64,000 bases of DNA from Phycisphaerales bacterium (GTDB lineage Bacteria; Planctomycetota; Phycisphaerae; Phycisphaerales; UBA1924), in the NCBI GenBank assembly GCA_029260295.1, contig JAJDDN010000006.1, positions 310,001-374,000 on the forward strand. Reading direction: 5' to 3'. Under the pieces are notes generated by a model. It was not told the DNA's origin and did no database searches. It worked only from the letters and a program-made list of their open reading frames with translations. Shown one piece after another: positions 1,761 to 60,210 of the stretch (position 1 is its first letter; each line of letters begins with the position of its first letter). Made by a program: the position numbers and the translations under genes.

Positions 1761-1766
1761 AGTATC
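1761..1766 (-). promoter_or_regulatory. Putative -10 hexamer close to a start codon
   Basis: GATACT on the minus strand ends 6 bases before the ATG at 1754. The same hexamer and gap occur before other genes here. A TATAAT about 20 bases further upstream is an alternative -10. Confidence 0.35.
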
Positions 1767-1813
1767 CCCTCAGACGGGAATTATATACAGTACCCAGTGT
1801 CAACGCGCCCTCC

Positions 1814-1819
1814 TACGAT
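1814..1819 (+). promoter_or_regulatory. Putative leaderless -10 box of cysS
   Basis: TACGAT ends 6 bases before the cysS ATG at 1826 and there is no Shine-Dalgarno sequence in between. This fits a -10 element whose transcript would begin at or next to the start codon. Confidence 0.45.
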
Positions 1820-1825
1820 GACACA

Positions 1826-3445
1826 ATGACATTTAAACTCTACAACACAATCACAAAAAAACAACAACCATTTGTTCCCAACGATTCAACTCGCATCACT
1901 TTCTATTCCTGCGGCCCAACGGTATATGACGATGCACATATCGGAAATTTTAGATCCTTCCTCGCAGCTGACCTCCTCCGCAGATGGGTCGAATCCCCCC
2001 TTTGCACACTCCAACTAACCGACGGCGGCACCCACGCCGGTCCACGCGAAGTCATCCATGTCATGAACATCACCGATGTCGGGCACATGACCGACGACGA
2101 CAATGCCGACGGCGCGGGCCAAGACAAAATGGAACTCGCCGCACAGAGGATTACAGAATCAAAGAAAGACGGTTCTATTCACAAAGCCGCTAATATTGAT
2201 CCAAGCGACCCAAGAGCCATCGCAGATTTCTACGAAGCAAGATTCAAATCAGACGCTATCAAACTCGGGCTCAAAGTTGCAGTAGAAGCAGAGTCTGATT
2301 CAACACTCATGCCCCGCGCCTCCGATCATGTCAACCACATGAAACAAGTCATCGTTGATCTCATCAACAAAGACGACGCCTACGCCGCAGGACAACCCGG
2401 CGCCCGCGCCATCTACTTCAACACCCAATCCTTCCCAAACTACGGCAAACTCTCAGGAAACACCCTCGAAAACCTCAAAGGCGGAGCAGGCGGACGAGTA
2501 GACGACTCCCAACAATCCGAAAAGAAACACCCCGCCGACTTCCTCCTCTGGAAAGAAGACGACACCCACAAAATGAAATGGCCCGCCCCAAACCACCCAG
2601 ACTGCAAAGACTGGGACCAGGGCTACCCCGGCTGGCACATCGAATGCACCGCCATGGCCCTGACCCGCCTCATCCCAGGCGGGCTCGATGCAGCAGCCGC
2701 CAAACACAGCACCATCGACCTCCACTCCGGCGGCGAAGACAACATCTTCCCCCACCACGAATGCGAGATCGCCCAGTCCTGCTGCTTCACTGGCAGCGAC
2801 TCCTTCGCCAACCACTGGTTCCACGCGCGGTTCTTGAAAGTCGAAGGCGAGAAGATGTCCAAATCCAAGGGCACCATGTACACTTTGTCGGATTTGACCG
2901 ACAAAGGCATCGATCCGGCGGCCGTGCGATTAGAGCTCATTAAAACCCACTACCGCGCCAACGCGGATTTCTCCATGCAAGGGCTCGCTGACTCAGCCAA
3001 ACAAATCACCCGCTGGCGCCGCTTCAAAGAAGCCGCTCATTCAGGACCCCAAGGCGAAACAAACACACTCGTCCAAGACCAAGTCACCAATGCCCTCAGC
3101 GACGACCTCAACATCGCCGGCGCAATCGGCGCGATCAACACATGGATCAAAGACACCGATTCCCCATCCAAAGCCGACGCCCAGACCTTTGACATTTTCG
3201 ACCAAATCCTCGGCGTCCTCTCCCTCAAACAACCCGAAGCCGAAGAATCCAAATCAGGCATCGCCCTCTACCAACCCGGCGTCACCCCGTCGCCGGAAAT
3301 CGAATCCCTCCTCACCCAGCGGGCCGAGGCCAAAAAAGCAAAAGACTTCGCCGCCGCCGACGCGATCCGCGACCAGCTCGCCGCCATGAACCTCTCCATC
3401 ATGGACAAACCGGGCGGCAAAGTCGAAGTCGCTCCGTCCAACTAA
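1826..3445 (+). CDS. cysS: Cysteine--tRNA ligase
   Basis: CysS joins cysteine to tRNA-Cys in the cytoplasm using ATP. The class I signature is seen as CGPTVYDDAHIGNFRSF (Cys29, and HIGN at 38-41) and the second motif as KMSKSKGT. Further zinc-ligand candidates are the Cys of WHIECTAMA and the HHECE stretch. At 539 residues it is longer than the E. coli enzyme (461), because of an acidic insertion after about residue 90. The C-terminal ~50 residues (AKKAKDFAAADAIRDQLA) are the usual tRNA-binding end. A palindromic repeat follows 15 bases after the stop. Confidence 0.97.
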   Translation: MTFKLYNTITKKQQPFVPNDSTRITFYSCGPTVYDDAHIGNFRSFLAADLLRRWVESPLCTLQLTDGGTHAGPREVIHVMNITDVGHMTDDDNADGAGQDKMELAAQRITESKKDGSIHKAANIDPSDPRAIADFYEARFKSDAIKLGLKVAVEAESDSTLMPRASDHVNHMKQVIVDLINKDDAYAAGQPGARAIYFNTQSFPNYGKLSGNTLENLKGGAGGRVDDSQQSEKKHPADFLLWKEDDTHKMKWPAPNHPDCKDWDQGYPGWHIECTAMALTRLIPGGLDAAAAKHSTIDLHSGGEDNIFPHHECEIAQSCCFTGSDSFANHWFHARFLKVEGEKMSKSKGTMYTLSDLTDKGIDPAAVRLELIKTHYRANADFSMQGLADSAKQITRWRRFKEAAHSGPQGETNTLVQDQVTNALSDDLNIAGAIGAINTWIKDTDSPSKADAQTFDIFDQILGVLSLKQPEAEESKSGIALYQPGVTPSPEIESLLTQRAEAKKAKDFAAADAIRDQLAAMNLSIMDKPGGKVEVAPSN

Positions 3446-3460
3446 CCATCTACTCCCACC

Positions 3461-3568
3461 GGGTGCCACTACTCGCTGTCTTCAGCGCAGTAGTGTCTTG
3501 GAATCGCGGCCAGAACCGGTGGTGAACCGAAGACACTACTGCGCCCAAAGCGGCGAGTAGTGGCACCC
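3461..3568. repeat. REP-like double-hairpin repeat, copy 1
   Basis: Outer arms GGGTGCCACTACTCGC (3461-3476) and its exact reverse complement (3553-3568) enclose inner arms GCGCAGTAGTGTCTT (3485-3499) and its exact reverse complement (3530-3544), with a 30-base centre. Each half can also fold alone, because CACTACTCGC nearly pairs with GCGCAGTAGTG. The same arms recur at 61911-62016. It lies between cysS and the downstream permease gene, so it may also act as a transcription terminator or mRNA-end stabiliser. Confidence 0.9.
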
Positions 3569-3633
3569 ATTTTCGCCACGCCTTCTCTTTCCCATTGTCT
3601 ATTGCCCGCTGCCCATTGCCCCCCTCCTCCCCC

Positions 3634-3639
3634 TATCAT
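3634..3639 (+). promoter_or_regulatory. Putative leaderless -10 box of the lptF-like operon
   Basis: TATCAT ends 6 bases before the ATG at 3646. No Shine-Dalgarno is present, and the longer frame that begins at 3595 has a poor N-terminus, so this box also supports the start at 3646. Confidence 0.5.
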
Positions 3640-3645
3640 CCCCTC

Positions 3646-5355
3646 ATGCTCTGGACCCTCTGGCGAGCCATCCTGTTTGAGTTCTGGCGGATGCTGATCA
3701 TCTCCACTTCTGTGGTTGTGGCTGCGATCGCCTTTGCCGCCACCGTCAAGCCTCTGGCTGACGGGTCGCTGACCGTCGATCAGGCGTTCAGATTCCTCGG
3801 ATACGCGATCCCGCCGATGCTCGCCTACGCGCTGCCGTTCGCGGCGGGGTTCTCGGCCACGATGACCTACAACCGGATGGTCTCAGAGAACGAGCTCACC
3901 GCGGTCTTTGCCTCGGGCGTCTCGCATAAACAGATCCTCTTTCCGATGCTCCTCTCGGGCGTGATCCTCTCGGGCTCGCTGGTCACACTCAACAACCGCG
4001 TCATCCCGCACTTCTTGCAACGCATGGAAGAGATGGTCACCCGCGACTTCGCCAAGATCCTTGTCAACTCGCTCTCTCAAGGCCACTCGGCAATGATCGG
4101 CAACACCGAGATCCACGCCGACCGCGTCGAAGAAGTCACCCCAGAACCGGACTCGCTCATCGAGCAGCAGTTCCTCCTTGGCGGCGTGGTCATGATCGAA
4201 GCCAATGAGGACGGCTCGATCCGAATCGACGGCACCGCCGCCCGCGCCTGGATCCTCCTGCTCCCCGCGTGGGCACTCTCCCCAGAAGACCGGGCCCGGA
4301 TCGCGGACGACTCCTCCATGGCGGTTGTCATGAAGTTTGTGGATCTGACAATTAATGAGCAAGGCGATGCTGTGTCTTGGGAATCGGTCACATCCCCCGC
4401 GATCCCGATCCCGCGTGTGTTTAAAGATGACCCGAAATACATGACCGCCGGCCAAATGAAAGAGCTTGAGGCGAACCCGGACCTCATGAACTTTGTCGAT
4501 CGCAAGCGTGTGGCACTGGGCCGCTCAATCGCCTCAACGCAGACCCTGGCCGACCTTACTAGCCGGGTCAATAGCGGGCAACCCATCGAGCTCATTTCAG
4601 GTGCCAACCAGACTATAACGCTCCTGGCTGGTTCAATATCCAACAAAGGCGGCCAGTGGATTCTGGGCCCGCTGCAGTCAACAGATTCGATTGAGATCGA
4701 GATTCGTAACAACCACAGTAGTTCGCACTCAAGCACCGAGCGTTTGAGCGCTGAATCAGCGGTACTCAACCCAAACTCATCTGGAACTGTTGACCCATTC
4801 GACGCACAGTCCTCACCAAATAGATTGGCCTTGGATCTGAGCCTGACCAATATCACGATCCTGGGCGACACTCTGACGCCACAGAATCAGATCGCCCAGA
4901 CGCAATACACCTCGCTCCATATCGACAACGACCCACTCCCCGATCTCCTCGCCAAGCCGAGTTCGAAAATGCTCGAAGCCGCGACCAACTATCGCCACCC
5001 GGACTCCATTCAACATAACGGGCACATCGAACACCTCTCAAATCAACTCGAGTTCGAGATCGCCCACCTCGGGCGCGAGGTCCTCTCAAAGACCCACGAG
5101 CGATGGGCCTTCTCGACCGCAGCACTCATTATGGTGCTCGCCGGCGGGGTCACCGCGATGCGTCTTCGTCATTCCCAGCCCCTCATGATCTACCTCTGGT
5201 CCTTCTTTCCAGCACTCACCACAATCCTCTTTATCTCTGGCGGACAGCAAGCCGTGCACAAATCTGGCTCGATCGCACTCCCGCTCCTTTGGTCTGGGAT
5301 ACTTCTCATCACCGGTTATACCCTCAACGCGCTCCGCAAAGTTTCAAAGCACTAA
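3646..5355 (+). CDS. LptF/LptG family LPS export permease
   Basis: This is an inner-membrane permease of the YjgP/YjgQ (LptF/LptG) family, which with LptB extracts lipopolysaccharide from the inner membrane. It is about 569 residues, longer than the usual ~360, because of a large soluble region between the N-terminal membrane segments (first ~110 residues) and the last three (final ~90). Family marks are the N-terminal amphipathic helix before the first hydrophobic span and FSATMTYNRMVSENELTAVFASG, close to the usual SENELTALRASG coupling region. The ATG at 3646 is chosen over 3595 because it matches the family start. It leads an operon with the next genes; lptB is at 14042-14809. Confidence 0.85.
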   Translation: MLWTLWRAILFEFWRMLIISTSVVVAAIAFAATVKPLADGSLTVDQAFRFLGYAIPPMLAYALPFAAGFSATMTYNRMVSENELTAVFASGVSHKQILFPMLLSGVILSGSLVTLNNRVIPHFLQRMEEMVTRDFAKILVNSLSQGHSAMIGNTEIHADRVEEVTPEPDSLIEQQFLLGGVVMIEANEDGSIRIDGTAARAWILLLPAWALSPEDRARIADDSSMAVVMKFVDLTINEQGDAVSWESVTSPAIPIPRVFKDDPKYMTAGQMKELEANPDLMNFVDRKRVALGRSIASTQTLADLTSRVNSGQPIELISGANQTITLLAGSISNKGGQWILGPLQSTDSIEIEIRNNHSSSHSSTERLSAESAVLNPNSSGTVDPFDAQSSPNRLALDLSLTNITILGDTLTPQNQIAQTQYTSLHIDNDPLPDLLAKPSSKMLEAATNYRHPDSIQHNGHIEHLSNQLEFEIAHLGREVLSKTHERWAFSTAALIMVLAGGVTAMRLRHSQPLMIYLWSFFPALTTILFISGGQQAVHKSGSIALPLLWSGILLITGYTLNALRKVSKH

Positions 5356-5363
5356 CGATCAAC

Positions 5364-7633: not shown

Positions 7634-7662
7634 TCGCCCGCAGAGGGCATATCATCTCCCCG

Positions 7663-8787
7663 ATGTCCCTGATCGACCGCTACATCGCGCGCCAGTTCCT
7701 GACCAATGTGGTCCTGCTCTTTGTCATTCTCTTTAGCTTCATCGTGGTCATCGATGTCTCGCTCAATATCGACCAGTTCCTCGAAATGGCCAAGCGATTG
7801 GGTGCCCAGGCCGGCGAGCAGGACCCGGGGACCATCCGCAAATCCGTCCTCTCGGTTCTCCTTATCGCCGATCTCTGGTGGCCAAAGCTCCTCCAGCTCT
7901 ACAACTTCCTTCTGGGCATGATCATGGTCGGGGCGATGGGCTTTACCTTCTCTCAAATGTCCAAGAACCGCGAGCTCATCGCACTCATGGCCGCCGGGAT
8001 CGGGCTCCACCGGATCATCAAACCCATCATTGTCGTCGCTCTGGGACTCACCGCACTCCAAGCGATCAACCAAGAACTCATCATCCCACGAATCGCCCCC
8101 CTGCTTGTCCGGGGCCACGAAGACGCCGGCGACCACCGCCTCAGTGTTGATTCGGTCCCCCTCACGCTCGACGGCCAAGGCCGACTCTTTCGTGCCGCGG
8201 CCTTCGATGCCAACACCAATACCCTCGAAGGCGTCTATATCCTCGAACGCGACGAAAACGGACACACCTCTCGATCAATCACCGCAGAGTCCGCCACATA
8301 CCGCGACGGTGGCTGGGATTTCACCAACGGCACCGCACAGCTCCGTAGCCAATCCTCTGTAAGCCAAGAACTCTCCATCGACCGGATCGAATCCTCCCTA
8401 GACCCCAACGAACTCCGCATCAACCGCTATGAGTCGTATTCGCAAGCCCTGAGCTTCGCCCAGGCCCGCGAGATGCTCAACCGCCAAACCCTCAAAGACC
8501 CCAAGAAACGCGCCCGCTACGAGCGCATCGCGCTGGGACGCTTCTCCATGATGATCTCAGGGATCCTCACGCTCATCATCGCGACGCCGTTTTATGCGAC
8601 CCGCGAGCCCAAGAACATGGTCATCCAGTCCATCCGCTGCGCCCCCATCGCGATCATCACCCTTATTGCGGGCGTCATCGGCGCCACCGCCGCGATCCCG
8701 GGACTCCCCGCCACCGTCGGCGTCTTCATCCCGGTCATGATCTTGTCAGTCGTCGCCGTCGCCCAGTTCAGCGCACTCAAGACATGA
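7663..8787 (+). CDS. LptF/LptG family LPS export permease
   Basis: This 374-residue permease has the standard LptF/LptG length. The N-terminus is SLIDRYIARQFLTNVVLLFVILFSF, typical of the family, with a DLWWPKLLQLYNFLLGMIMVGAMGFTFSQMSKNRELIALMAAGIG stretch split over residues ~66-108 that carries the coupling-helix pattern NREL.ALMAAG. A periplasmic beta-jellyroll-like middle (about 120-280) is followed by three C-terminal membrane segments. It would pair with the permease at 3646-5355 and with LptB. TATCAT lies 7 bases before the ATG. It overlaps the small downstream gene by ATGA. Confidence 0.88.
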   Translation: MSLIDRYIARQFLTNVVLLFVILFSFIVVIDVSLNIDQFLEMAKRLGAQAGEQDPGTIRKSVLSVLLIADLWWPKLLQLYNFLLGMIMVGAMGFTFSQMSKNRELIALMAAGIGLHRIIKPIIVVALGLTALQAINQELIIPRIAPLLVRGHEDAGDHRLSVDSVPLTLDGQGRLFRAAAFDANTNTLEGVYILERDENGHTSRSITAESATYRDGGWDFTNGTAQLRSQSSVSQELSIDRIESSLDPNELRINRYESYSQALSFAQAREMLNRQTLKDPKKRARYERIALGRFSMMISGILTLIIATPFYATREPKNMVIQSIRCAPIAIITLIAGVIGATAAIPGLPATVGVFIPVMILSVVAVAQFSALKT

Positions 8788-13632: not shown

Positions 13633-14049
13633 TTACTTACCCGCATCCCCGCGCAGACCCATCGCACGCTCGATGATGCCCTCGCGGTCATCGGTTTGGC
13701 TCTCTACAAACTCAAAGTGCCACTCGTTGGTCGACTTGAACTTTAACGGCACCGCCGTGGCCGCCAAATCAATAATCGGGTATTCATACAACGGGGCCTT
13801 CATGACACGCCCCTCATGGATCGGCTCGTAGCCATCGAGGGCGAGCCGGACATCGTACTTGCCGTAATATTTAAAGCCCGCCTCACAAGGGGTCACCCCG
13901 ATTACCTCATCATTAAGCCACACCCGTGCCCCGCTGGGCTGGCTGGTCACCTTAACCCGCCGCTCCACACACCCCACCGACCCCATAAAAAAACCAGTGA
14001 AGAGCAAGGCTAGTGACGCGATTTTTGTACACTGTGCATACTTACCCAT
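13633..14049 (-). CDS. PEGA-domain lipoprotein
   Basis: This ~138-residue protein starts at the ATG at 14049, which overlaps the end of lptB by 8 bases. Its signal peptide ends in a lipobox-like GSVGC, so it is probably lipid-anchored. Residues after this (VKVTSQPSGARVWLNDEVIGVTP) are a PEGA domain, a small beta-sandwich found on envelope surfaces. The frame could be extended to 14109, but that start would lie inside lptB and leave the signal peptide internal. Co-translation with lptB suggests an envelope role; the function is unknown. Confidence 0.75.
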   Translation of the reverse strand: MGKYAQCTKIASLALLFTGFFMGSVGCVERRVKVTSQPSGARVWLNDEVIGVTPCEAGFKYYGKYDVRLALDGYEPIHEGRVMKAPLYEYPIIDLAATAVPLKFKSTNEWHFEFVESQTDDREGIIERAMGLRGDAGK

Positions 14050-14809
14050 TGCTTGCCCCTGCAACTTCTGTTGATTCGTCAAACTCGTCGCCGCGAAACA
14101 TTGAACCAAGGTACGCCCGGCGGACCAGCTCGGAGTTGATCAACGCTTTGGGGGTTCCTTCAGCAAGCACCCGGCCTGAATCCAGAATGTACGCCCGATC
14201 GCACACATTGAGAGTCTGCTGCACATTGTGATCGGTAATCAGAATCGAGATCCCGCGCTGCGTAAGCGACCGGATCTCGGCTTGCAGGTCTTCGACCGCG
14301 ATCGGATCCACACCTGAAAACGGCTCGTCGAGCAGAATCAGCTTCGGATTGGTTACCAGTGAGCGTGCGATCTCAAGTTTACGCCGCTCGCCCCCTGAGC
14401 ATGTCCGGGCCGCGTCGTTGGCTTTGTGGGTGAGCCCGAACTGATCGAGCAACTCCGACGCTTTGAGTTTCCGCTGCTTCCGCGACAGGTCCTGGGTTTC
14501 CATTATCGCCAGCAGATTCTGTTCGCAGGTGAGCCGCTGGAACACCGATGGTTCTTGCGACAGGTATCCCATTCCGAGCCGGGCGTGACGGTACATCGGG
14601 AGCCCGGTCACTTCGGTATTGTTGAAGATCACCCGGCCCTCGTCGCGCTCGATCATCCCGATCGTCATTCGAAAGGTCGTCGTCTTCCCCGCTCCATTTC
14701 GGCCGAGGAGCCCCACGATCTCAGAGTGCTCCACCTCTAGCGACACACCATTGACCACGGCTCGTCCGCCGTAGGACTTCTTCAGGTTAATCGCTTCGAG
14801 CAATGACAT
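14042..14809 (-). CDS. lptB: LPS export ABC transporter ATP-binding protein LptB
   Basis: LptB is the cytoplasmic ATPase that drives LPS extraction by LptF/LptG. At 255 residues it has the usual length. Walker A is GRNGAGKT (residues 36-43), the ABC signature is CSGGERRKLEIARSL, Walker B is LILLDEPFSGVDPIAV and the switch His is in ITDHNVQQTL. The order and wording of these motifs match the LptB subfamily (DEPFAGVDPI type). TAAACT ends 6 bases before the ATG. The PEGA lipoprotein gene overlaps its 3 prime end. Partner permeases are at 3646-5355 and 7663-8787. Confidence 0.95.
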   Translation of the reverse strand: MSLLEAINLKKSYGGRAVVNGVSLEVEHSEIVGLLGRNGAGKTTTFRMTIGMIERDEGRVIFNNTEVTGLPMYRHARLGMGYLSQEPSVFQRLTCEQNLLAIMETQDLSRKQRKLKASELLDQFGLTHKANDAARTCSGGERRKLEIARSLVTNPKLILLDEPFSGVDPIAVEDLQAEIRSLTQRGISILITDHNVQQTLNVCDRAYILDSGRVLAEGTPKALINSELVRRAYLGSMFRGDEFDESTEVAGASNG

Positions 14810-14815: not shown

Positions 14816-14821
14816 AGTTTA
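14816..14821 (-). promoter_or_regulatory. Putative leaderless -10 box of lptB
   Basis: TAAACT on the minus strand ends 6 bases before the lptB ATG at 14809. There is no Shine-Dalgarno, and only 29 bases separate lptB from the upstream gene. Confidence 0.45.
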
Positions 14822-17616: not shown

Positions 17617-18429
17617 CTAACCCCGAAGCACCGCACGAAACACCCCCGGAGTCTGCCCTACATGGCTCCGAAACGCTCTGGTAAAGTGCGCCTGATCTAC
17701 AAACCCAGCGCCGCACGCGATGCGTGCGATCGACGCGTTTGTGTGCGCCAGCGCCTTTGCCGCTCGCGAGATCCGGATGCGCCGATGATACTCACCAATC
17801 GTCATCCCCATCGCCCCCCGGAACCCCCGCGCCAAATGTCCCCGGCTCACCCCCGCAGCATCGGCAAGTTCATCGAGCGAAACAGATTGGTCGTGGACTT
17901 CATAAAGATAGTCACGCACAACCCCAATCCAACCCGCCCGGCGGGCCGGACGACTCGCAACACCAGCCACCTCATCAAGCAGTTCGTAAGCCAGCGATTC
18001 CATCGCCAATCCAGAAGACCGATCCGGATGCGTCAGCTCTACGAGCACACGCGACGCAAGCCCCACCACTCTGGTGTGCTCAAGTTCTTCAACACCGGTA
18101 TCCCTCAGCCCAGAAATCTCATTGAGCATTTCAGCGGGGATCACCACATGCATCGTTCGGATCCCGGTTGCCCCAGACCGGAACCGGTGCCTCATCCCAT
18201 CACGAAAGAATCCAACAAGCCCAGGCGAGGACTGGACATCTCTTTTTCCATAAGTCCCATCGCCCCCCCCACCAAGAACAAAGTCGATACTCCCGACCGG
18301 GTGCTCGTGCCATGATTGCTTGAAATCGTTCGTGTATGTCTTATGTGTGATGTAAAAATCACCCGCGCGGGCACTGTCGATCAGACACGCACTCCCACCA
18401 ATATCGGACTCTCTTTGTGGCAGAATCAT
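17617..18429 (-). CDS. AraC-family transcriptional regulator
   Basis: This ~270-residue regulator has an N-terminal cupin-like sensor (WHEHPVGSIDFVLGGGG, SPGLVGFFRDGMRHRF) and a C-terminal AraC double helix-turn-helix. The first helix pair is SLDELADAAGVSRGHLARGFR and the second IARIACGAGFVDQAHFTRAFRSHVGQTPGVFRA, both shown here in part. The frame can begin at a TTG at 18432, but ATG at 18429 is better and has AATAAT 5 bases upstream. No metabolic genes lie next to it that would reveal its target. It is convergent with the PEP-CTERM gene. Confidence 0.9.
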   Translation of the reverse strand: MILPQRESDIGGSACLIDSARAGDFYITHKTYTNDFKQSWHEHPVGSIDFVLGGGGDGTYGKRDVQSSPGLVGFFRDGMRHRFRSGATGIRTMHVVIPAEMLNEISGLRDTGVEELEHTRVVGLASRVLVELTHPDRSSGLAMESLAYELLDEVAGVASRPARRAGWIGVVRDYLYEVHDQSVSLDELADAAGVSRGHLARGFRGAMGMTIGEYHRRIRISRAAKALAHTNASIARIACGAGFVDQAHFTRAFRSHVGQTPGVFRAVLRG

Positions 18430-18479
18430 CAACCATTATTCGATCAACCACCCCCAAGGGTTGCACCCGAGTTGGACTT

Positions 18480-20179: not shown

Positions 20180-20857
20180 TCACCCCATCGATTGCCGCCC
20201 CGCGATCGCATCGGCAAGCACCGCTTTATTGGCAAACTCCAAAGAACTCCCCGTAGGCACCCCACGCGCCAGCCGTGTCACCTTGACCCCAAAGCTGCTC
20301 AGCTCCTGAGCCAGATACAACGCCGTCCCGTCCCCCTCAAGCGTCGGATTCAATCCAAGCACGATCTCCTCGATCCGAACCCGCCCGTCCCCGTCCCCCG
20401 CTTCTTGAGACGCTTTGACCCGCCCAATCAAATGCGAAATCGTCAGATCCTCTGGTCCAACCCCGTCCAATGGCGAGAGCCTCCCCATCAGCACATGAAA
20501 CAACCCCTGGTACATCCCTGTCTGCTCTAATGCAATCAGGTCCTTGGGCTGCTCAACAACACAGATCAACGACCGGTCCCGCTTGGGATTGGCGCACACG
20601 CCGCACACATCGTCGTCCGACAGGTTGAAACACACCTTGCAATGCCGCACCGATTCCTTGACCGCGCGGATGGCGCTCGACAACGCCATCGCCTCGGCCG
20701 GATCTGATTTGAGAATATGGAACGCCAACCGCTCGGCCGACCGGATCCCGATCCCGGGCAGCCCGCTGAGCCGCTCGATCAACTCCCGAACCGCGCCGGG
20801 ATAACCGTGCCCAACCCCTCCCAGCTTCCCGTTCCCGTTTGATCCGTTTTTGCCCAT
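20180..20857 (-). CDS. recR: Recombination mediator protein RecR
   Basis: RecR works with RecO and RecF to load RecA at gaps. The 225-residue protein has the helix-hairpin-helix LSGLPGIGIRSAERLAFHIL, the four-Cys zinc finger CKVCFNLSDDDVCGVC, and a Toprim domain starting ICVVEQPKDLIALEQTG. A Gly/Asn-rich N-terminal extension of about 20 residues precedes the family start. TAGGAT ends 6 bases before the ATG. It is divergent from the glycosyltransferase gene at 20895, with 37 bases between the two start codons. Confidence 0.95.
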   Translation of the reverse strand: MGKNGSNGNGKLGGVGHGYPGAVRELIERLSGLPGIGIRSAERLAFHILKSDPAEAMALSSAIRAVKESVRHCKVCFNLSDDDVCGVCANPKRDRSLICVVEQPKDLIALEQTGMYQGLFHVLMGRLSPLDGVGPEDLTISHLIGRVKASQEAGDGDGRVRIEEIVLGLNPTLEGDGTALYLAQELSSFGVKVTRLARGVPTGSSLEFANKAVLADAIAGRQSMG

Positions 20858-20863
20858 GCCACC

Positions 20864-20869
20864 ATCCTA
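20864..20869 (-). promoter_or_regulatory. Putative leaderless -10 box of recR
   Basis: TAGGAT on the minus strand ends 6 bases before the recR ATG at 20857. Its upstream part must overlap the divergent promoter at 20883-20888. Confidence 0.45.
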
Positions 20870-20882
20870 TGCGATCCTCCCC

Positions 20883-20888
20883 TACCCT
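20883..20888 (+). promoter_or_regulatory. Putative leaderless -10 box of the second glycosyltransferase
   Basis: TACCCT ends 6 bases before the ATG at 20895. There is no Shine-Dalgarno. The box supports this start over the in-frame ATG at 20850, which lies inside recR. Confidence 0.45.
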
Positions 20889-20894
20889 TCACCA

Positions 20895-22403
20895 ATGCCC
20901 CGCATCCTCGCCCAACTCTTCCTCCTTCTGATCCTCTGTGCCTTCATCACCCTCCCGAACCTCGCCTCCACAGGCCTGTCCGACTCCGAAGGCCACCGCG
21001 TCATCCCCGCCCTCGAAATGGTTCGCTCAGGCGACTACCTCGTCCCCACCATGTTCGACCAGCCCTATGTCCGCAAACCCCAGCTTGTCCCCTGGCTCTT
21101 CGCCGCCGCCCTCAACATCCACAACGACCCAACCCTCACCCCAAGATTGGTTTCGGCAGCCGCCTTCACCCTCATGGTCCTCGGCTCATTCTTCTTCGCC
21201 CGCAGGTGGTTCGGCCATGATTCAACAAGTGCCGGATTCCCCGCCGCAGCGGCCCTTGCCCTCACGCCTTTGTACTGGGCCCCTGCACGCGCCGCCGAGA
21301 TCGAATCCATCCACAACCTATTGACCGCCCTCGGCGCCTGGATCGCGATCGACCTTATCATCAACGCCTCAAAGCCAATCAAACACAAACTCTCCGCCGC
21401 CCTCCTCCTTACCCTCACCGCCCTCCTCATGATCCTGACCAAAGGCCCCGCAGGATTCCCGATCCTCCTATCCCTCTTATTCACCACCGCAATCCTCAAC
21501 CGTTCACTCAGATCATTCTTGAATCCTTTCATCTGGACCCCGGTCACAATCGCCGCACTCATCTTCGCATGGCATTGGTCAAACACCCTCCAAGCCGCCG
21601 GCCCAGACGCTATTGTCCAATCCCCCAACGCCTTCATGTTCGAATCTGGCCGAGTCCTCAAACTCGCCGCCTTCATCCCCGTCTCCCTCCTGACCGCCCT
21701 CCCCATCACCGGCGCCCTCCTCTTCCCTTGGGGTTCCGATGCCAAATCAGAATCCAGCGATTCAGAACCGGCCGCCCAACAACTCAACACCGCCAAACTC
21801 ATCGCCCTCTCAATCCCCCTCGCCCTCCTCATCATGATGCTCACTGGAGTCTCCAACGACCGCTACGCCCAGCCCATCCTCGCCCCGCTCGCCCCACTCG
21901 TCGGCTGGCTCCTCATCACCAACCTCCAACCCCACCGCAAAAAAATCCTCCGCGCCCTCACCCTCGGCTCCCCAAAGATCCTCGCCACCATCCTCTGTAT
22001 ATTGGCCGCGGTTTATATCACCATCATCGAACCCGCCAAACGAGAATCCTCAGGCAAACTCCCCGCCATCCAACTCGCCGAAGATCTCCAATCAAATCTC
22101 CCCCCCGCCCCCCATGGCACCAGATACACCCTCGTCGCCGACGCCATGATCGAGGCCCGCCCCGAAACTCTCCTGTACCTTAACGCCGCCCTCCAAGGCA
22201 CTGACCACCAACTCACCATCCTCTGGATTCCAAAGCTCTCCACCGAACGCCTCGCAAACCTGGCCAAGACTAACCACCCCCCACTCCTGGCACTTCTTCG
22301 AACAGATCAAAACGGGGACGAGTCCGATAAAGTCTTGATAGACAAAGCGATAGCTACAGGAAGAGTCCACGAGTTCGACTTCACACTTGTCACCCTCGAC
22401 TGA
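20895..22403 (+). CDS. ArnT-like glycosyltransferase family 39 membrane protein
   Basis: This ~502-residue polytopic protein belongs to the same superfamily as the gene at 5364-6977. The first periplasmic loop carries the catalytic-type acidic pair in LSDSEGHRVIPALEMVRSGDYLVP, followed by FDQPYVRKPQLVPWL, close to the KPPL.YW pattern of ArnT-like enzymes. About eleven hydrophobic segments are seen, then a soluble C-terminus. The start at 20895 begins directly before the first membrane helix. It probably glycosylates an envelope lipid or protein from a polyprenyl donor; the substrate is unknown. Confidence 0.85.
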   Translation: MPRILAQLFLLLILCAFITLPNLASTGLSDSEGHRVIPALEMVRSGDYLVPTMFDQPYVRKPQLVPWLFAAALNIHNDPTLTPRLVSAAAFTLMVLGSFFFARRWFGHDSTSAGFPAAAALALTPLYWAPARAAEIESIHNLLTALGAWIAIDLIINASKPIKHKLSAALLLTLTALLMILTKGPAGFPILLSLLFTTAILNRSLRSFLNPFIWTPVTIAALIFAWHWSNTLQAAGPDAIVQSPNAFMFESGRVLKLAAFIPVSLLTALPITGALLFPWGSDAKSESSDSEPAAQQLNTAKLIALSIPLALLIMMLTGVSNDRYAQPILAPLAPLVGWLLITNLQPHRKKILRALTLGSPKILATILCILAAVYITIIEPAKRESSGKLPAIQLAEDLQSNLPPAPHGTRYTLVADAMIEARPETLLYLNAALQGTDHQLTILWIPKLSTERLANLAKTNHPPLLALLRTDQNGDESDKVLIDKAIATGRVHEFDFTLVTLD

Positions 22404-23809: not shown

Positions 23810-23859
23810 ACCCTGCTGCAGGCGGTTGAAATTATCTCAGCATTCATCCCAATAAGCAG

Positions 23860-23888
23860 TTGCGGGGATGGTCTCGCGATGGGATACT
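23860..23888 (+). promoter_or_regulatory. Putative promoter of the first DUF4870 gene
   Basis: TTGCGG (23860-23865), a 17-base spacer and GATACT (23883-23888) are followed by a 6-base gap and the ATG at 23895. The same arrangement is repeated before the second copy. Confidence 0.55.
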
Positions 23889-23894
23889 GGTGTT

Positions 23895-24320
23895 ATGAGC
23901 GACCAACAAGTACAGAATGAGCATCCGGCCCCTCCAATCAACGAGCAAGGTCGGGCGTACGATCCGGATGTTACGAGCGAAGAGCGGACCTATGCGATGT
24001 TCATGCATCTGACGCTCCTGCTGAACCTGACGGGGGTTGGGGGACCGATCTCATTTATCGCTGTGCTGATCATGTGGATGATTAAGAAGGATGAATCACC
24101 GTTTCTTGATGATCACGGGCGCGAAGCGGTGAACTTTCAGATTTCACTCTTTGTGTGGATATTGATCTTTGGCTTTGTTGGGATCTTGACTTGTGGCTTA
24201 GGATGGCTGGTAGCGATGGGTGTTCCTGTGCTCGGGGCGGTCGGCATGATTCTCGCAGCAATCGCAGCAAACAAGGGTGAGTTCTACCGTTATCCGATGA
24301 CAATGCGGTTTATCCATTAA
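23895..24320 (+). CDS. DUF4870 (Tic20-like) membrane protein
   Basis: This ~141-residue protein has a soluble N-terminus (PPINEQGRAYDPDVTSEERTYAM), then three hydrophobic segments. The DUF4870 mark DESPFLDDHGREAVNFQIS sits between the first and second, and the C-terminus reads AANKGEFYRYPMTMRFI. Such proteins are small inner-membrane proteins of unknown role. The ATG at 23895 is preferred to 23868 because a promoter-like pair of hexamers ends 6 bases before it. It is a tandem duplicate of the next gene, upstream region included. Confidence 0.85.
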   Translation: MSDQQVQNEHPAPPINEQGRAYDPDVTSEERTYAMFMHLTLLLNLTGVGGPISFIAVLIMWMIKKDESPFLDDHGREAVNFQISLFVWILIFGFVGILTCGLGWLVAMGVPVLGAVGMILAAIAANKGEFYRYPMTMRFIH

Positions 24321-24365
24321 ATCGATTGGTTCCAAAATAGTTTTCAATCGAATCCCAATGATCGG

Positions 24366-24394
24366 TTGCGGGGATGGTCCCGTTGTGGAATACT
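24366..24394 (+). promoter_or_regulatory. Putative promoter of the second DUF4870 gene
   Basis: TTGCGG (24366-24371), a 17-base spacer and AATACT (24389-24394) are followed by a 6-base gap and the ATG at 24401, mirroring the first copy. Confidence 0.55.
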
Positions 24395-24400
24395 GGTGAC

Positions 24401-26787: not shown

Positions 26788-26793
26788 AGTGTA
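26788..26793 (-). promoter_or_regulatory. Putative leaderless -10 box of the ABC-2 permease
   Basis: TACACT on the minus strand ends 6 bases before the ATG at 26781, without a Shine-Dalgarno between them. Confidence 0.45.
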
Positions 26794-48736: not shown

Positions 48737-48783
48737 GTTTCTTGTGCGATTCCTCTGCTCAGACGATGGTGTTACGCTACTCG

Positions 48784-51411
48784 ATGGTGTATCGTCTTCC
48801 TCAAATGATCTCATCTGTGTTCCAATCTATATCACTCGCCAAATCCGTAACCAGCCGGACCCACCAAACCCTCAGCCGGGCGGCGATTGTTGCCATTGCC
48901 TGTGGCTGCACTTTCGGGATCACGAACACCACGGCTACAGCCCAGGAAACCACCGAGAATCTCTCAGACTTCTCGATCTATGAGAACCGACCGATCGCAC
49001 AGATCTTGGTTCGGGGATCAATGACCGCCGAAGGCGTCCGCACCCCGCTCAGCCCAGAAGGCCGCCAACAAGCCAGCAATGTCTTGGTTTCTGCAGCGGG
49101 GTCTATCTTTGACGCCCAGCAAGTCCGCGACGACATCCGACAACTCAACAGACTCGGGCTCTTCCAACGCGTCGAGATCTACGCCGGGCTCACAGAAAAT
49201 GGCGAAGTCGAACTCGCATTTGATCTCTACGAACGCATGCAGGTCGTCGATGTACAGGTCACCGGGAACACCGAAATCAATGACACCGAAATCCGGGGCG
49301 TAATCGATGTCATCTCTGGAACACCGATCGACCGGTTCCAGATCGACCGCTCCGCTCGCAGAGTTGAAGAACTCTACCGTGCCAAAGGCTACTACTTTGT
49401 CCGCGTCAATATCGATGAAGACGAGCTCGCCGAAACCGGCCTGGTGATCTTCCGCATCCTTGAGGGCAACCGCCTCAAGGTGACCGGGATCAGATTCTCA
49501 GGAAACGAAGCCTTTGATAGCAAGAAACTCCGTCGAGAAATCAAAACCAAGAAAGCGAACATCTTCAGACGGGGCCAGCTCGATGATGAGATCCTTGATG
49601 TTGACACCGCCAATCTGATCGAGTTCTACCGCGACCGCGGGTACCTCGATGTCCGGACCGACCGACTCGTTCAGCCCGCACCAAACGGACGCGAAGCAAT
49701 CATCACCTACCTCATCGAAGAGGGTCCGCTCTACACGATGCGTGAAGTGCAGGTCGATATCGCTTCACCCGACGGATCAGAACCGATTTTCGGACGAGCC
49801 CAAATCGCGGGGCTCATGACGATCAAACCCGGGGATGTGTACTCTGTTCGTGATCTCGCCGATTCCATCGAAATCATCAAAGACGCGTACGGCCAGATGG
49901 GATATGTGGACGCCATTGTTGAACGCCTCGAACGACGCGATGAGAACCAACCACTAGTAGACCTCGTCGTCGCAATCTCTGAGGGTGGACGATCACGCGT
50001 TGGCGAAGTCATCATCCAAGGCAACGATCTCACACGCCAAGAAGTAATCCGCAGACAAGTAGAACTCAAGCCCACCCGCCCGCTCGATACCATTGCGATG
50101 GATCGAACAAAGACACGCCTCCGCCTGCTCCGACTTTTCAATGACCGTTCGGGTGCCAAAGTCACCCCCCAAGAATCCGGCGTCGAGTTCTTTGCAGAAG
50201 TATGGGACGACGAGTTCCTCCCACGAGCAAGACGGAGCGATCAATCCAATAACTCGTCGCAAGACGATACTCAGAACGATCCGATCTCTCTCACGCTCAC
50301 CCCTCCCGATAAATCATCCTTCCGTGATGTGTTAATCGAGATCGAAGAAACCAACACAGGTAGTTTCGATCTTGGCGGTGCGGTATCCTCGGACTCTGGC
50401 GTCGTTGGCCGGATCGCGATCACCCAGCGGAACTTTGATATCAGAGACACTCCCGACTCATTCGGTGAGTTCTTTGCAGGCCGCGCCTTCCGCGGCGGCG
50501 GCCAAACATTTCAAATCGAAGCACTGCCAGGCAGTGAGGTCCAGACTTACCGTATATCACTCTCTGAACCATACCTGATGGAATCAAACTATTCAGGATC
50601 GGTCAGCGCATTCTTCCGCAGACGCAACTTTGATGAGTTTGATGAACAACGCGCCGGATTCACGCTCGGACTCGGGCGACGATTCGGAACACGCTGGACC
50701 GGTGCCCTGAACTTCCGGCTCGATCAGATCGAGCTGGGAGACATCGACCCAACACGCCCGGTTGATGTCTTCAAAGCCGCCGACCCAACAACACTCGCAG
50801 GCCTCTCCGCATCACTCTCACGGAGCACGCTTGATTCTCGCGTCCGCCCAACCAAAGGCTCCCGCTCATCAATAAGTATCGAGCAAGTTGTCGGCGACTT
50901 CGTCTATACACCAATCAGCATCAAGCACAATACCTTCGTCCCGATCCGTGAGGATTACCTCGGCCGGTCAACGATCCTCAAACTCAGCTCAAGAGCTGGT
51001 TATATCCCCCAAGGCCGAGACGAAACCCCAACATACGAACGATTCTATTCTGGCGGCCAAGACTTCCGTGGCTTCGAGTTCAGGACCATCTCCCCCAAAG
51101 GGATCAGAAACGACAACGGGCTCCCGTCCGACGACCCCGTCGGGGGCACCTTTGAGTTCTTCCTTGGTGCTGAAATCCAGCAGCCAATCTACGAAGAACT
51201 CCTTTCTCTTGTATTCTTTGTCGATTCAGGAACCGTCGCGTTTGATCCAGGATTCGACGAATACCGTGTCGCGGTTGGTTTCGGCTTCCGGATCTTCATG
51301 CCCGCACTCTCACCAGCCCCGCTGGCGTTTGATTTCGGCTTCCCGATCCTCAAAGAAGACGGCGATGAAACCCGCCTATTCACCTTCTCAGTCGATCTGC
51401 CGTTCAACTAA
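48784..51411 (+). CDS. bamA: Outer-membrane assembly factor BamA (Omp85)
   Basis: BamA folds and inserts outer-membrane beta-barrels. The ~875-residue protein has a signal peptide (hydrophobic core AAIVAIACGCTFGI, cut near TATAQ) and POTRA repeats, with ending patterns such as VVDVQVTGNTEINDTEI and LKVTGIRFSGNEAFDSKKLR (shortened). A surface-antigen barrel follows (LGLGRRFGTRWTGALNFRLDQ, YSGGQDFRGFEFRTISPKG, short excerpts) and ends in Phe-Asn. Candidate starts are TTG 48742 and ATG 48766, 48784 and 48805; 48784 is chosen because TACGCT ends 5 bases upstream. A poorly conserved region near residue 500 (SNNSSQDDTQNDP) is an acidic insertion. It leads skp, lpxD and lpxC. Confidence 0.93.
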   Translation: MVYRLPQMISSVFQSISLAKSVTSRTHQTLSRAAIVAIACGCTFGITNTTATAQETTENLSDFSIYENRPIAQILVRGSMTAEGVRTPLSPEGRQQASNVLVSAAGSIFDAQQVRDDIRQLNRLGLFQRVEIYAGLTENGEVELAFDLYERMQVVDVQVTGNTEINDTEIRGVIDVISGTPIDRFQIDRSARRVEELYRAKGYYFVRVNIDEDELAETGLVIFRILEGNRLKVTGIRFSGNEAFDSKKLRREIKTKKANIFRRGQLDDEILDVDTANLIEFYRDRGYLDVRTDRLVQPAPNGREAIITYLIEEGPLYTMREVQVDIASPDGSEPIFGRAQIAGLMTIKPGDVYSVRDLADSIEIIKDAYGQMGYVDAIVERLERRDENQPLVDLVVAISEGGRSRVGEVIIQGNDLTRQEVIRRQVELKPTRPLDTIAMDRTKTRLRLLRLFNDRSGAKVTPQESGVEFFAEVWDDEFLPRARRSDQSNNSSQDDTQNDPISLTLTPPDKSSFRDVLIEIEETNTGSFDLGGAVSSDSGVVGRIAITQRNFDIRDTPDSFGEFFAGRAFRGGGQTFQIEALPGSEVQTYRISLSEPYLMESNYSGSVSAFFRRRNFDEFDEQRAGFTLGLGRRFGTRWTGALNFRLDQIELGDIDPTRPVDVFKAADPTTLAGLSASLSRSTLDSRVRPTKGSRSSISIEQVVGDFVYTPISIKHNTFVPIREDYLGRSTILKLSSRAGYIPQGRDETPTYERFYSGGQDFRGFEFRTISPKGIRNDNGLPSDDPVGGTFEFFLGAEIQQPIYEELLSLVFFVDSGTVAFDPGFDEYRVAVGFGFRIFMPALSPAPLAFDFGFPILKEDGDETRLFTFSVDLPFN

Positions 51412-54872: not shown

Positions 54873-55538
54873 TTATTCTGATGCTTCGGTTCGGAGTGCA
54901 AACTCCAGGCGTTGATCGCCGGTGCGGAGGGCGCGGATCAGCACAACACGCCCATCGCCGAGATCCACCTTTGCGTCGCCGAGGTTGTCTCTGGTGAGGT
55001 AATCAGATGCAAAGGTCTTCGGGACTCTCGCTGAACCGATGCAGACGCGGTCTGCGGTTATGGTAAACCGGTTTTGATCATCGGTGCCCAGTTGAATAAT
55101 CGCCCAGATGATGGTGGAGCCATGGGCGTGCGTTAACTGGGCGCCGATGGTTATGCCGGTTTCGCTGATCGCGATACGGACTTCTCCGATCTCATCGATC
55201 CAAGTGTCGTCGGTAAACGAATGAACAGTCTCTCTGAAACGGTGAGTGAGCCAGCTGTTGAGCTGGTCCTGATTAATCGCGGCATTCCAGTCGGAGTCTT
55301 CCGGCAATCGCACCCGGGTTAAGGCGGTGGTGATGCGGTTCTCGAGTTCAATCCCTGACTGCTCTGTATTGAGCGGGTTGTTGTCGAGTGCTTTCCACCA
55401 GCCCGGGGTATTGTCGAGCCCGCTGAGTTGCCAGATAATGAACACCGGAGCGATGGCGGCCACTGCCATCGCAGCGAGCAATCCCAGCACGACACGGTCG
55501 TGGGGTTGATCGGGATGTAGGAGTGATCGAAAACTCAT
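54873..55538 (-). CDS. Single-span membrane protein, unknown function
   Basis: This ~221-residue protein starts at the ATG at 55538, 6 bases after TATAGT, rather than 55649, which lies inside the rpsI region. A basic N-terminal tail is followed by one membrane span (VVLGLLAAMAVAAIAPVFII) and a soluble domain of ~175 residues outside the membrane (WNAAINQDQLNSWLTHRFRE, VRIAISETGITIGAQLTH). No family is recognised. It converges with the coiled-coil lipoprotein gene, leaving two bases between the stops. Confidence 0.65.
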   Translation of the reverse strand: MSFRSLLHPDQPHDRVVLGLLAAMAVAAIAPVFIIWQLSGLDNTPGWWKALDNNPLNTEQSGIELENRITTALTRVRLPEDSDWNAAINQDQLNSWLTHRFRETVHSFTDDTWIDEIGEVRIAISETGITIGAQLTHAHGSTIIWAIIQLGTDDQNRFTITADRVCIGSARVPKTFASDYLTRDNLGDAKVDLGDGRVVLIRALRTGDQRLEFALRTEASE

Positions 55539-55544: not shown

Positions 55545-55550
55545 ACTATA
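55545..55550 (-). promoter_or_regulatory. Putative leaderless -10 box before 55538
   Basis: TATAGT on the minus strand ends 6 bases before the ATG at 55538. It lies within the terminator region of the upstream rpsI gene. Confidence 0.45.
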
Positions 55551-55577: not shown

Positions 55578-55614
55578 CTGTGAATGAAACTGTTGAAAGG
55601 GTAAAAACCCTGTA

Positions 55615-56689: not shown

Positions 56690-56942
56690 GACGATCTCCT
56701 AATCCGGCGTTCGGTTCTGACCCTTCTGACCTATAAATGGTCGGGACGATGAACCAGCAGCCGTTGTTTGGTGCTTGACACGCTGCCTACCGGGCAGGGC
56801 GGGCTGGAAGAGTGATCAACCAGCAGATTTGTGACATATACCAACGGACAAGCCGTTGGGGACCAAGAATTTAGGTCCTTGCCTCCGCCGTGTCAAATTG
56901 TTGGGCAAATCTAGGGACCAATAGCGTGAATTGGCCCGATGA

Positions 56943-58496: not shown

Positions 58497-58505
58497 ATCG
58501 TTTAA

Positions 58506-59333
58506 TCACTCGGCGATCGATAGTTTCTTAAGCGTCGATGCCGCGATTTTGCTCACGACGACCAACAGTACAATCGTCGCGGCGATCCCTGCAGCGATGA
58601 CCCAGTGCGGCTGGCTGTATTCGCCGGTCCAGTTGGTGATTGATACCCCGACAAGCACCGCCCCAAGAGTCCGAGGCAGCATACCAAGCATGGTGCCGAT
58701 TAAGAACACCGACCGTGAAACACCAAGGCTTACCAGCACAAGATTCGTCAACGCAAATGGGGCACTCGGTGATGCGCGGAGCAAGGTAACGATCAGGATC
58801 GCCCGCTTCGGGCTGGCCGTCAGGAGCGCGTGACGGACCATCGAGGTCTTTGGTGATCGGTTGAGTTCGTGCTCGATGCGGTCGCGGGCGAGGTGTTTGA
58901 CGACCTCGTATCCGATGAGTGCCGCGCCGCCGAACCCGATCATCGCGGCCGGGAGCCCGAGGGTGAATCCGAACGCGTATCCAGCAAGCACGGCCTGTGA
59001 AATAGTGGGCAACAGTCCAAACCCCGCAAGGACCACGAAGCAAACGGTGTAGATCCCGAGCCCGATGACGAGCTGGGATATTGAGCCGGCGTCGCCGATC
59101 AACAACAGACTGATGGGCTCCATATTGAGGAGCAGGATCACGCCGGCGATACTCGGAAAGAGTGACCACGCGATCCCCAGAGCCGTCGCGGGCGCAAGAC
59201 GCCGGAACCTCGATTGATGAGGAGAGTTAGGTGTAAGAGGGGCCGCAGAAGGAACTTTGGCATTGGTATGAAGATCCAGAACCACTGGCTTGGCTGGAGT
59301 TTCTAGTTGAGACTGTGTGTCAATAAGGCTCAT
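58506..59333 (-). CDS. TVP38/TMEM64 family membrane protein
   Basis: This ~275-residue protein belongs to the VTT (SNARE-associated Golgi, DedA-related) family. Marks are LLPTISQAVLAGYAFGFTLGLPAAMIGFGGAALIGYEVVKHLAR (split here) and the RASPSAPFALTNLVLV turn near the C-terminus. About six hydrophobic segments are seen. The frame can extend to a TTG at 59381 that overlaps the upstream stop, but the ATG at 59333 is preferred, although neither has a clear ribosome site. It is a paralogue of the next gene and follows it in the same operon. Confidence 0.85.
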   Translation of the reverse strand: MSLIDTQSQLETPAKPVVLDLHTNAKVPSAAPLTPNSPHQSRFRRLAPATALGIAWSLFPSIAGVILLLNMEPISLLLIGDAGSISQLVIGLGIYTVCFVVLAGFGLLPTISQAVLAGYAFGFTLGLPAAMIGFGGAALIGYEVVKHLARDRIEHELNRSPKTSMVRHALLTASPKRAILIVTLLRASPSAPFALTNLVLVSLGVSRSVFLIGTMLGMLPRTLGAVLVGVSITNWTGEYSQPHWVIAAGIAATIVLLVVVSKIAASTLKKLSIAE

Positions 59334-59377
59334 AAGGGTAGATCGTAGTCCACTCAACCCCCCAAAGTTGATTGTTC

Positions 59378-60157
59378 TCAATCCTTTGCGTCGGATTCAG
59401 ATTCAGTCCCCATGGCTTTGTCGATTGCCTTATTGGCCATGTGTCCCAGCAGCATCAGGACGGCGAACATTATGGCAATACCCCCGATGATGAGCCATTT
59501 GGGTTTGTCGTATTCGTCCCAGCTGGTGACCTGGTGCCCAATCCAGACGGCCGCGAATGTCCGCGGGGCCATGCCGACGACGGTGGCGATGACATACGGG
59601 ACGAGCTTCACACCCGAGACCGCCATAAACCCATTCATGAGTGAGAACGGGGAGGCGGGTGAGACACGGAGCAAGACCAAAATCCCGGTCGCCCGCCAGA
59701 ACCCGTGGCGAATAAACGCGTCGCGGACGATCTGGGCTTTGGGGTGTTTATGGATTTCGGATTCGACACTTTTGCGTGCGATTTTGAGTGCGATGTAGTA
59801 GCCGATGACCGACGCGCCGGTAAACCCGATGAGCGCGGCGGGGAACCCGATACCGATCCCAAAGGCAAAGCCCGCGAGGATTGCTTGCGAATAAGTCGGG
59901 AGGAACCCAAGCCCAGCGGAGACAAAGAAGATCCCGATATACATCGCGACGCCGATGGCGAGCGAGCCCCCGCCCTCCTCGTTGCGTTGAAGAAGGATGT
60001 CCGAGGCCTTAGACATGTTGGCCAGGAGGAGGAAACCTGCTATCGCAGGCATGACAGCCCACGCGATGCCGAGATACGCGGCGGGGCCTAGGCGGGAGAA
60101 GATCGCCATAGCAGACTGGCTTTGGTCTGGATTTGTAACTGGTTCGTTGGTGGTCAT
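59378..60157 (-). CDS. TVP38/TMEM64 family membrane protein
   Basis: This 259-residue protein is the upstream paralogue. It shows FLPTYSQAILAGFAFGIGIGFPAALIGFTGASVIGYYIALKIAR (split here) and RVSPASPFSLMNGFMAV. About six hydrophobic segments are present. VTT-type proteins are linked to lipid movement across membranes and to polyprenyl or phospholipid recycling; that is family knowledge, not shown here. TACCAT ends 6 bases before the ATG at 60157. Confidence 0.88.
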   Translation of the reverse strand: MTTNEPVTNPDQSQSAMAIFSRLGPAAYLGIAWAVMPAIAGFLLLANMSKASDILLQRNEEGGGSLAIGVAMYIGIFFVSAGLGFLPTYSQAILAGFAFGIGIGFPAALIGFTGASVIGYYIALKIARKSVESEIHKHPKAQIVRDAFIRHGFWRATGILVLLRVSPASPFSLMNGFMAVSGVKLVPYVIATVVGMAPRTFAAVWIGHQVTSWDEYDKPKWLIIGGIAIMFAVLMLLGHMANKAIDKAMGTESESDAKD

Positions 60158-60163
60158 GGGGTG

Positions 60164-60169
60164 ATGGTA
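60164..60169 (-). promoter_or_regulatory. Putative leaderless -10 box of the TVP38 pair
   Basis: TACCAT on the minus strand ends 6 bases before the ATG at 60157. Confidence 0.45.
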
Positions 60170-60204
60170 TGCTATTTGATGGGATCAAAGAGGACTTTGT
60201 CTCG

Positions 60205-60210
60205 TATAGT
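60205..60210 (+). promoter_or_regulatory. Putative leaderless -10 box before 60216
   Basis: TATAGT ends 5 bases before the ATG at 60216. It is divergent from the TACCAT box at 60164-60169. Confidence 0.4.

Follow-up and report, generated by a model that had tools for sequence, protein, structure and literature searches.

The 64,000-nucleotide stretch of a Phycisphaerales genome examined here (assembly GCA_029260295.1, contig JAJDDN010000006.1; G000:C6:310001-374000 in our numbering, hereafter the window) carries TANNNT hexamers, here called boxes, shortly before the start codons of genes without a Shine-Dalgarno (SD) sequence. We found that about 11–16% of the called genes of this genome use such a start-proximal box (11% with blind starts, 15.7% with model-chosen starts, both defined below). 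At a rough probability of 0.9, judged from sequence, these boxes are −10 promoter elements that would give the genes concerned leaderless mRNAs. An earlier note on this DNA had proposed this from eleven window genes with a hexamer six bases before the start codon, plus four with gaps of five or seven (Table 1; gap denotes the number of bases between hexamer and start codon). It had also taken the host for a planctomycete, correctly, since the window cysteinyl-tRNA synthetase (CysS) is closest to those of Phycisphaerales metagenome genomes; it shares 83% identity with isolate NORP244. The assembly comprises 2.91 Mb in 8 contigs.

Genes were called with a 3-periodic Markov coding model alone, with no motif, so these blind starts owe nothing to the box. 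The window was among the training sequences. An earlier caller based on codon log-odds had returned just 185 genes in 400 kb, and the Markov caller was used instead. Because this caller also overlooks genes (the earlier note named 19 starts, 7 of which went uncalled), box fractions refer to called genes. The sample outside the window covered 800 kb (0.80 Mb of the 2.91 Mb genome) and held 595 genes, 594 of them with a full upstream region. TANNNT stood at gaps of 5, 6, 7 and 8 before 33, 34, 9 and 13 of these genes, against a baseline of 5.3 (the mean count at gaps 12–44). In 200 dinucleotide shuffles the maxima at the same gaps were 11, 11, 11 and 13, and gaps 7 and 8 alone did not exceed every shuffle. 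The excess came to about 68 of 594 genes (11%). The comparison with shuffled upstream regions suggested in the earlier note thus yielded the sharp peak it had anticipated. Its spacing of exactly six bases held in part: the peak at gap 6 is real, but gap 5 is equally common in this sample and the spacing extends over 5–8. Since gap 5 matches gap 6 in frequency, the exactness partly reflects how the genes had been picked. Within the window, blind starts had TANNNT at gap 6 in 5 of 43 genes (0.55 per gap expected). In Thermus, the positive control, blind starts had the box in 18 of 92 genes, where 1.7 would be expected.

Motif searches recovered the same element. A free scan printed 45 gapped patterns, all of them in our reading either SD words (GGAG, AGGA) or TAC..T, TA...T and TA.A.T at gaps 5–6. 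Expectation-maximisation (EM) with uncertain starts, seeded with TACAAT and AAGGAG and run for 30 rounds, settled on TA[CT][AC][AC]T together with AAGGAG. In this mixture model T1, A2 and T6 of the box were near-fixed, and gaps 5, 6, 7 and 8 had shares of.33,.34,.13 and.11. Two of 14 random-start runs of 12 rounds reached the box, once as TACAAT and once as the same box shifted by one base. A run ending on AATCAA slightly outscored TACAAT at that stage; after 30 seeded rounds TACAAT was the best solution (43254.6 vs. 43163.7 for AATCAA). Strict matches numbered 115 of 591 at the true distance and 22 when the box distance was slid by 10 bases, an excess of 15.7%. The mixture model assigned 19–25% of genes to the box class, which we regard as an upper figure. 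Trained outside the window, it picked 8 of the 11 claimed window starts. Box probability exceeded 0.9 at 1826, 3646, 14809, 20895, 26781 and 60157, was 0.47 at 23895, and was split at the recR start 20857 (0.35 box, 0.65 SD). Among the four additional starts, 7663 received 0.99. The model passed over 1754, 24401, 55538 and 60216.

The box was mostly limited to genes lacking an SD sequence, as had been claimed. With blind starts, SD core words preceded 7 of 67 box genes and 273 of 527 others. The anti-SD sequence CCTCC is present in the 16S rRNA of three genomes of the same family; a 16S rRNA was not found in our own assembly. At a class cut of p > 0.8, the 638 genes with model-chosen starts divided into 104 box genes, 420 SD genes and 114 unassigned. 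A codirectional upstream neighbour lay within 15 bases of 4 of the 104 box genes, compared with 77 of the 420 SD genes (Fisher p = 6.7e-5). The contrast was weaker with blind starts, where such a neighbour was less than 20 bases away in 5 of 67 box genes and 80 of 527 others. Divergent neighbours were found for 52 of 104 box genes and 133 of 420 SD genes (model-chosen starts).

The motif also precedes an untranslated RNA. We examined 25 RNase P RNA loci in 24 genomes of the order, our own included; the genomes are related and the loci not independent, some being nearly identical (such as L028 and L030). In 23 of these loci TANNNT lay 4–9 bases before the Rfam 5′ end. Our own copy has TATAAT at gap 6, and the two misses have TANNNT at gaps 11 and 1. 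A further 20 samples comprised 1 of the same family, 1 of the same class and 18 from elsewhere in the phylum; TANNNT lay at 4–9 bases in 6 of them.

We then compared orthologous starts, again from related, non-independent genomes. For four window genes (26781, 14809, 20895 and CysS) the box was present at 74 of 76 orthologous starts, own copies excluded, where chance would give at most 1.3 per gene. TANNNT occurred at gaps 4–9 in 28 of 28 usable orthologs of 26781 (drawn from the best 30 of 35 near-full-length matches), in 27 of 27 of 14809 (best 30 of 38), and in 4 of 4 of 20895 (6 loci of at least 48% identity, weaker ones excluded). For CysS it occurred in 15 of 17 planctomycete-like orthologs at gaps 5–9; these were the first 17 of 80 loci, the remainder being judged by their titles to come from other phyla. 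Loci without a usable upstream region had been dropped (1 of 30, 2 of 30, 1 of 6 and 0 of 17, respectively). Judged by eye, the flanks of the conserved boxes appear diverged. A smaller search found TANNNT in 6 of 6 orthologs of 3646 (gaps 5–8) and a retained box in 2 of 2 orthologs each of 20857 and 60157. The single ortholog of 55538 has TATGAT at gap 6, and the pool searched contained no ortholog of 60216 or 7663. For 23895 and 24401, several of the 8 orthologs printed out of 13 carried a non-TANNNT [GA]ATA[AC]T, in the form GATA[AC]T at gaps 5–6 for 23895. Across 110 reciprocal best pairs, the partner had a strict box for 13 of 23 boxed own genes and for 7 of 87 others (p = 1.6e-6).

Because the box is kept at orthologous starts and also stands before the untranslated RNase P RNA, it appears to act in transcription, as a −10 promoter element, and not in translation. 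We propose that the housekeeping sigma factor recognises it 5–8, mostly 5–6, bases before the start codon. RNA polymerase would then begin on the A of ATG or no more than one or two bases away from it. The spacing fits the −10 to +1 distance of sigma-70 promoters, and since gaps 5 and 6 dominate, the transcript start would fall at the codon itself. The resulting mRNAs would be leaderless and probably translated by direct recognition of the 5′-terminal start codon, without SD pairing; such translation is known elsewhere. The module would seldom be used inside operons, and most other genes would rely on an SD sequence. The leaderless reading of the earlier note thus draws support from the distance peak, SD avoidance, the RNase P box, avoidance of operon interiors and ortholog conservation, from which we infer the transcript start.

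These promoters would also work without a recognisable −35 hexamer. Searches by k-mers and by TTGACA matches yielded nothing, and apart from the two flanking bases, columns upstream of the box held at most 0.14 bits. No extended −10 (TGN) was seen, the two bases before the box leaning to C/G and then C/A. A TTGACA-like hexamer occurred in 1 of 23 RNase P promoters. The corresponding Thermus counts (2 of 20 vs. 9 of 72) come from a sample too small to serve as a control. The primary sigma factor, encoded on G000:C2, scored 346.9 bits, just below the curated cut-off of 354, and aligns with solved RpoD over parts that we take to include regions 2.4 and 4.2. As the alignment runs through both, it gives no sign that sigma has lost −35 binding.

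Several observations weigh against this reading. Matches of at least 4 of 6 bases to TTGACA, 15–19 bases before the box, were not enriched, occurring in 15 of 109 box genes and 89 of 482 others. The same held for TTGACA-like hexamers in same-family genome G070 (3 of 22 vs. 13 of 129) and in the same genus (0 of 22 vs. 14 of 120). As a −35 signal is absent, promoter identity depends on the −10 hexamer. Random-start EM ended elsewhere than the box in 12 of 14 runs. For RNase P, the 5′ ends were taken from the Rfam model rather than from mapping, and in G070 the RNase P box lies at gap 12. Gene class also differed between orthologs: 6 of 19 box-class own genes had an SD-class partner and 7 of 65 SD-class own genes a box-class partner, some of these pairs being distant. 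Among the listed members, the 1754 box was absent at gaps 4–9 in the 8 orthologs printed out of 9, and 18429 and 48784 each lacked a box in their single ortholog. We therefore consider 1754, 18429 and 48784 weak members.

Could the box act in translation instead, as a non-SD ribosome or S1 site or an AT-rich element of low structure within an ordinary leader? It does occupy the position of the SD sequence and replaces it, and the available text of one study (PMC5397173) reads a non-SD upstream bias in several phyla as leaderless and/or S1-dependent initiation. Untranslated RNase P RNA, however, has the same hexamer at the same distance, and box genes are scarce inside operons, although genes there would need a translation signal just as much. 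Nor is the signal the diffuse AU enrichment that a link to translation would suggest; it is a sharp hexamer with near-fixed T1, A2 and T6. We consider a translation-level role very improbable. Chance or artefact, whether from AT-rich upstream regions, upstream stop codons (TAA/TAG) or motif-biased start choice, seems close to negligible for the set as a whole. A reader seeking boxes will find some; three of the eleven are not TANNNT, and 1754 is not conserved. The peak nevertheless persists with motif-blind starts, the slid model loses most of its matches, and orthologs keep the box. We rejected an origin from upstream stop codons because position 3 is C or T in ~90% of the 104 boxes. Chance is thus contradicted for the set; individual boxes, that of 1754 for example, may yet be coincidental.

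A closer variant accepts the boxes as −10 elements and places leaders of 1–5 bases on the transcripts, or adds transcription from further upstream, so that many of these mRNAs would not be strictly leaderless. Gaps of 7–9 do occur, and the distance from a bacterial −10 element to the transcript start varies by a few bases. The dominance of gaps 5–6, which places the start at the codon, argues for strictly leaderless transcripts, and we hold the short-leader variant to be rather unlikely.

We next considered how far the arrangement extends. Strict counts at the true distance were compared with the slid decoy, using model-chosen starts; most samples held 43–92 genes, and p values are uncorrected for the 15 samples. 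Four genomes of the same genus, pooled, gave 24 vs. 5 of 142. Counts in the same family were 24 vs. 4 of 151 (G070) and 7 vs. 2 of 45 (G095), and in the same order 4 vs. 0 of 64 (G102) and 2 vs. 3 of 70 (G106). Phycisphaeraceae ACE_PLA15 gave 4 vs. 1 of 58. Other planctomycete families ranged from 9 vs. 1 of 86 in G064 (uncorrected p = 0.009) through 5 vs. 4 of 43 (G066), 9 vs. 10 of 70 (G046) and 3 vs. 5 of 74 (G041) to 1 vs. 4 of 60 (G036) and 0 vs. 2 of 46 (G018). Thermus gave 20 vs. 3 of 92 and Latescibacteria 3 vs. 2 of 68. Signals in relatives were weaker with blind starts: 5 of 72 against 1.3 expected (G070), 6 of 86 against 1.7 (G064), 3 of 64 against 1.0 (G102) and 1 of 70 against 1.9 (G106). 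A cysS match was present in 74 genomes, from which we sampled 20 starts, restricted to matches whose first aligned residue was 1–4. The same-family start had a box at gap 5 and the same-order start one at gap 11; none of the 18 starts from other families had a box at gaps 4–9. Taken together, these samples show a strong signal in the family, retention of the box at individual genes throughout the order, and a scattered or missing signal elsewhere.

Similar architectures are known from Deinococcus and Actinobacteria, as the earlier note stated and published work bears out. According to the available text of Zhong et al. 2025 (PMC12340547), a −10 motif adjacent to open reading frames in Deinococcus-Thermus acts as a promoter by mutation, reporter and RpoD interaction assays. 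As observed or proposed here, TANNNT lies a few bases before the start, the mRNAs are leaderless, a classical −35 is mostly missing and SD genes coexist. Unlike here, the phylum is another and ~30% of open reading frames are involved; the boxes of the present genome, characterised from sequence, have middle bases leaning to [CT][AC][AC]. The domain-wide scan of that paper (Fig. S7) may include planctomycetes, a word absent from its available text. The TA-led genes of Zheng et al. 2011 (PMC3160421) likewise have TANNNT ~12 bases before the start and are read as leaderless; that signal was reported in some 206 of 953 bacterial genomes, as genome-level counts, and planctomycetes are not named in the main text as available. 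In Mycobacterium tuberculosis (Cortes et al. 2013, PMC3898074, available text), again another phylum, TANNNT is centred 7–12 bases before transcript starts that, unlike ours, were mapped; there too a conserved −35 is lacking and leaderless transcripts are extensive. The leaderless class of GeneMarkS-2 (Lomsadze 2018, as cited in PMC9581028) is predicted for 21.6% of bacterial species, in up to 40% of transcripts, planctomycetes going unnamed in the accessible part of the citing paper. Leaderless and/or S1 initiation has been suggested for phyla including Planctomycetes, from one planctomycete species, in the available text of PMC5397173. A search by title and abstract opening, with most subscription journals outside it, found no report of leaderless genes or mapped starts in Phycisphaerales. 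Overall, the boxes are real and their reading as −10 elements of leaderless genes is very likely right. We regard Phycisphaerales as a new lineage for a known architecture, in which orthologs clearly retain the box at several genes that the earlier note had named.

If so, the order would be a further group, beside Deinococcus-Thermus and Actinobacteria, that mixes leaderless and SD initiation. A gene finder expecting SD sequences would tend to misplace the starts of such genes. With no leader left for riboswitches or small RNAs, regulation would be confined to transcription or to signals within the coding sequence. As there are planctomycete samples without the signal, gains and losses of leaderless initiation could be followed gene by gene. 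Tentatively, and with some doubt, we suggest that Phycisphaerales housekeeping transcription runs largely from the −10 alone. The ~12-base module would serve as promoter and translation-start context at once, fixed gene by gene (cysS, the lptF/G-like gene, ABC transporter genes) after the lineage parted from other planctomycetes. Were this true, a tree of the phylum could be used to date a switch between the SD-led and the leaderless mode of initiation.

Table 1 Hexamers before start codons in the window (window coordinates; products marked Pfam are Pfam assignments)
Hexamer	Position	Strand	Gap	Downstream gene	Remark
GATACT	1761..1766	-	6	LuxR-type regulator, 1080-1754	not TANNNT; weakest member
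TACGAT	1814..1819	+	6	cysteinyl-tRNA synthetase, 1826-3445 (Pfam)	
TATCAT	3634..3639	+	6	LptF/LptG-family permease, 3646-5355 (Pfam)	
TATCAT	7650..7655	+	7	second LptF/LptG-family gene, 7663-8787	
TAAACT	14816..14821	-	6	ABC transporter ATPase, 14042-14809 (Pfam)	
AATAAT	18435..18440	-	5	AraC-type regulator, 17617-18429	not TANNNT; weak
TAGGAT	20864..20869	-	6	RecR gene, 20180-20857	
TACCCT	20883..20888	+	6	PMT_2-domain protein, 20895-22403	
GATACT	23883..23888	+	6	DUF4870 gene, 23895-24320	not TANNNT
AATACT	24389..24394	+	6	paralogous DUF4870 gene, 24401-24850	not TANNNT
TACACT	26788..26793	-	6	ABC-2 membrane protein, 24916-26781 (Pfam)	
TACGCT	48773..48778	+	5	Omp85 gene, 48784-51411	start uncertain
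TATAGT	55545..55550	-	6	gene 54873-55538	
TACCAT	60164..60169	-	6	VTT-domain protein, 59378-60157 (Pfam)	
TATAGT	60205..60210	+	5	gene 60216-60890	divergent from 60157

All eleven hexamers at gap 6 have the sequence and spacing first reported for them, but only 8 of the 11 fit TANNNT; 1754, 23895 and 24401 do not. Among the four additional members, 48784, 60216 and 7663 fit it and 18429 does not. The SD genes cited as lacking the box (9122, 11977, 46633 and 56689) are indeed free of TANNNT at gaps 5–8 in all four cases. Pfam families of the boxed genes comprise a LuxR-type regulator, CysRS, an LptF/G-family permease, an ABC ATPase, RecR and a PMT_2-domain protein, together with two DUF4870 paralogs, an ABC-2 membrane protein and a VTT-domain protein; the gene starting at 55538 has no Pfam family.

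A genome-wide search for a promoter peak at a fixed distance before SD genes found none, the signal there being diffuse. Three of the four orthologs of SD gene 9122 (L330, L331 and L335) show TACCAT at a distance of 16 bases from the start, the SD sequence lying in between. This would imply a leader of ~10 bases, an arrangement for which we saw no genome-wide peak. At SD gene 11977(-), a TACACT precedes the start codon by 21 bases and may be the promoter of a transcript whose SD-bearing leader is very short.

The recR and PMT_2 genes are divergent, and their 37-bp intergenic region (20858-20894) contains both boxes. Coupled divergent promoters were considered as a general arrangement and rejected: 4 of 116 divergent pairs were doubly boxed (p > 0.8 on both sides) against 5.0 expected. 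The recR/PMT_2 pair, with recR at 0.35, lies outside those four. At 23840-24401, the two tandem DUF4870 paralogs are alike in their upstream regions and boxes; the GATA[AC]T found there in several relatives is −10-like except that its first base is not T. GC skew is strongly negative over window positions 1-24000 (−0.21 to −0.26) and lies between −0.12 and +0.10 beyond 24 kb.

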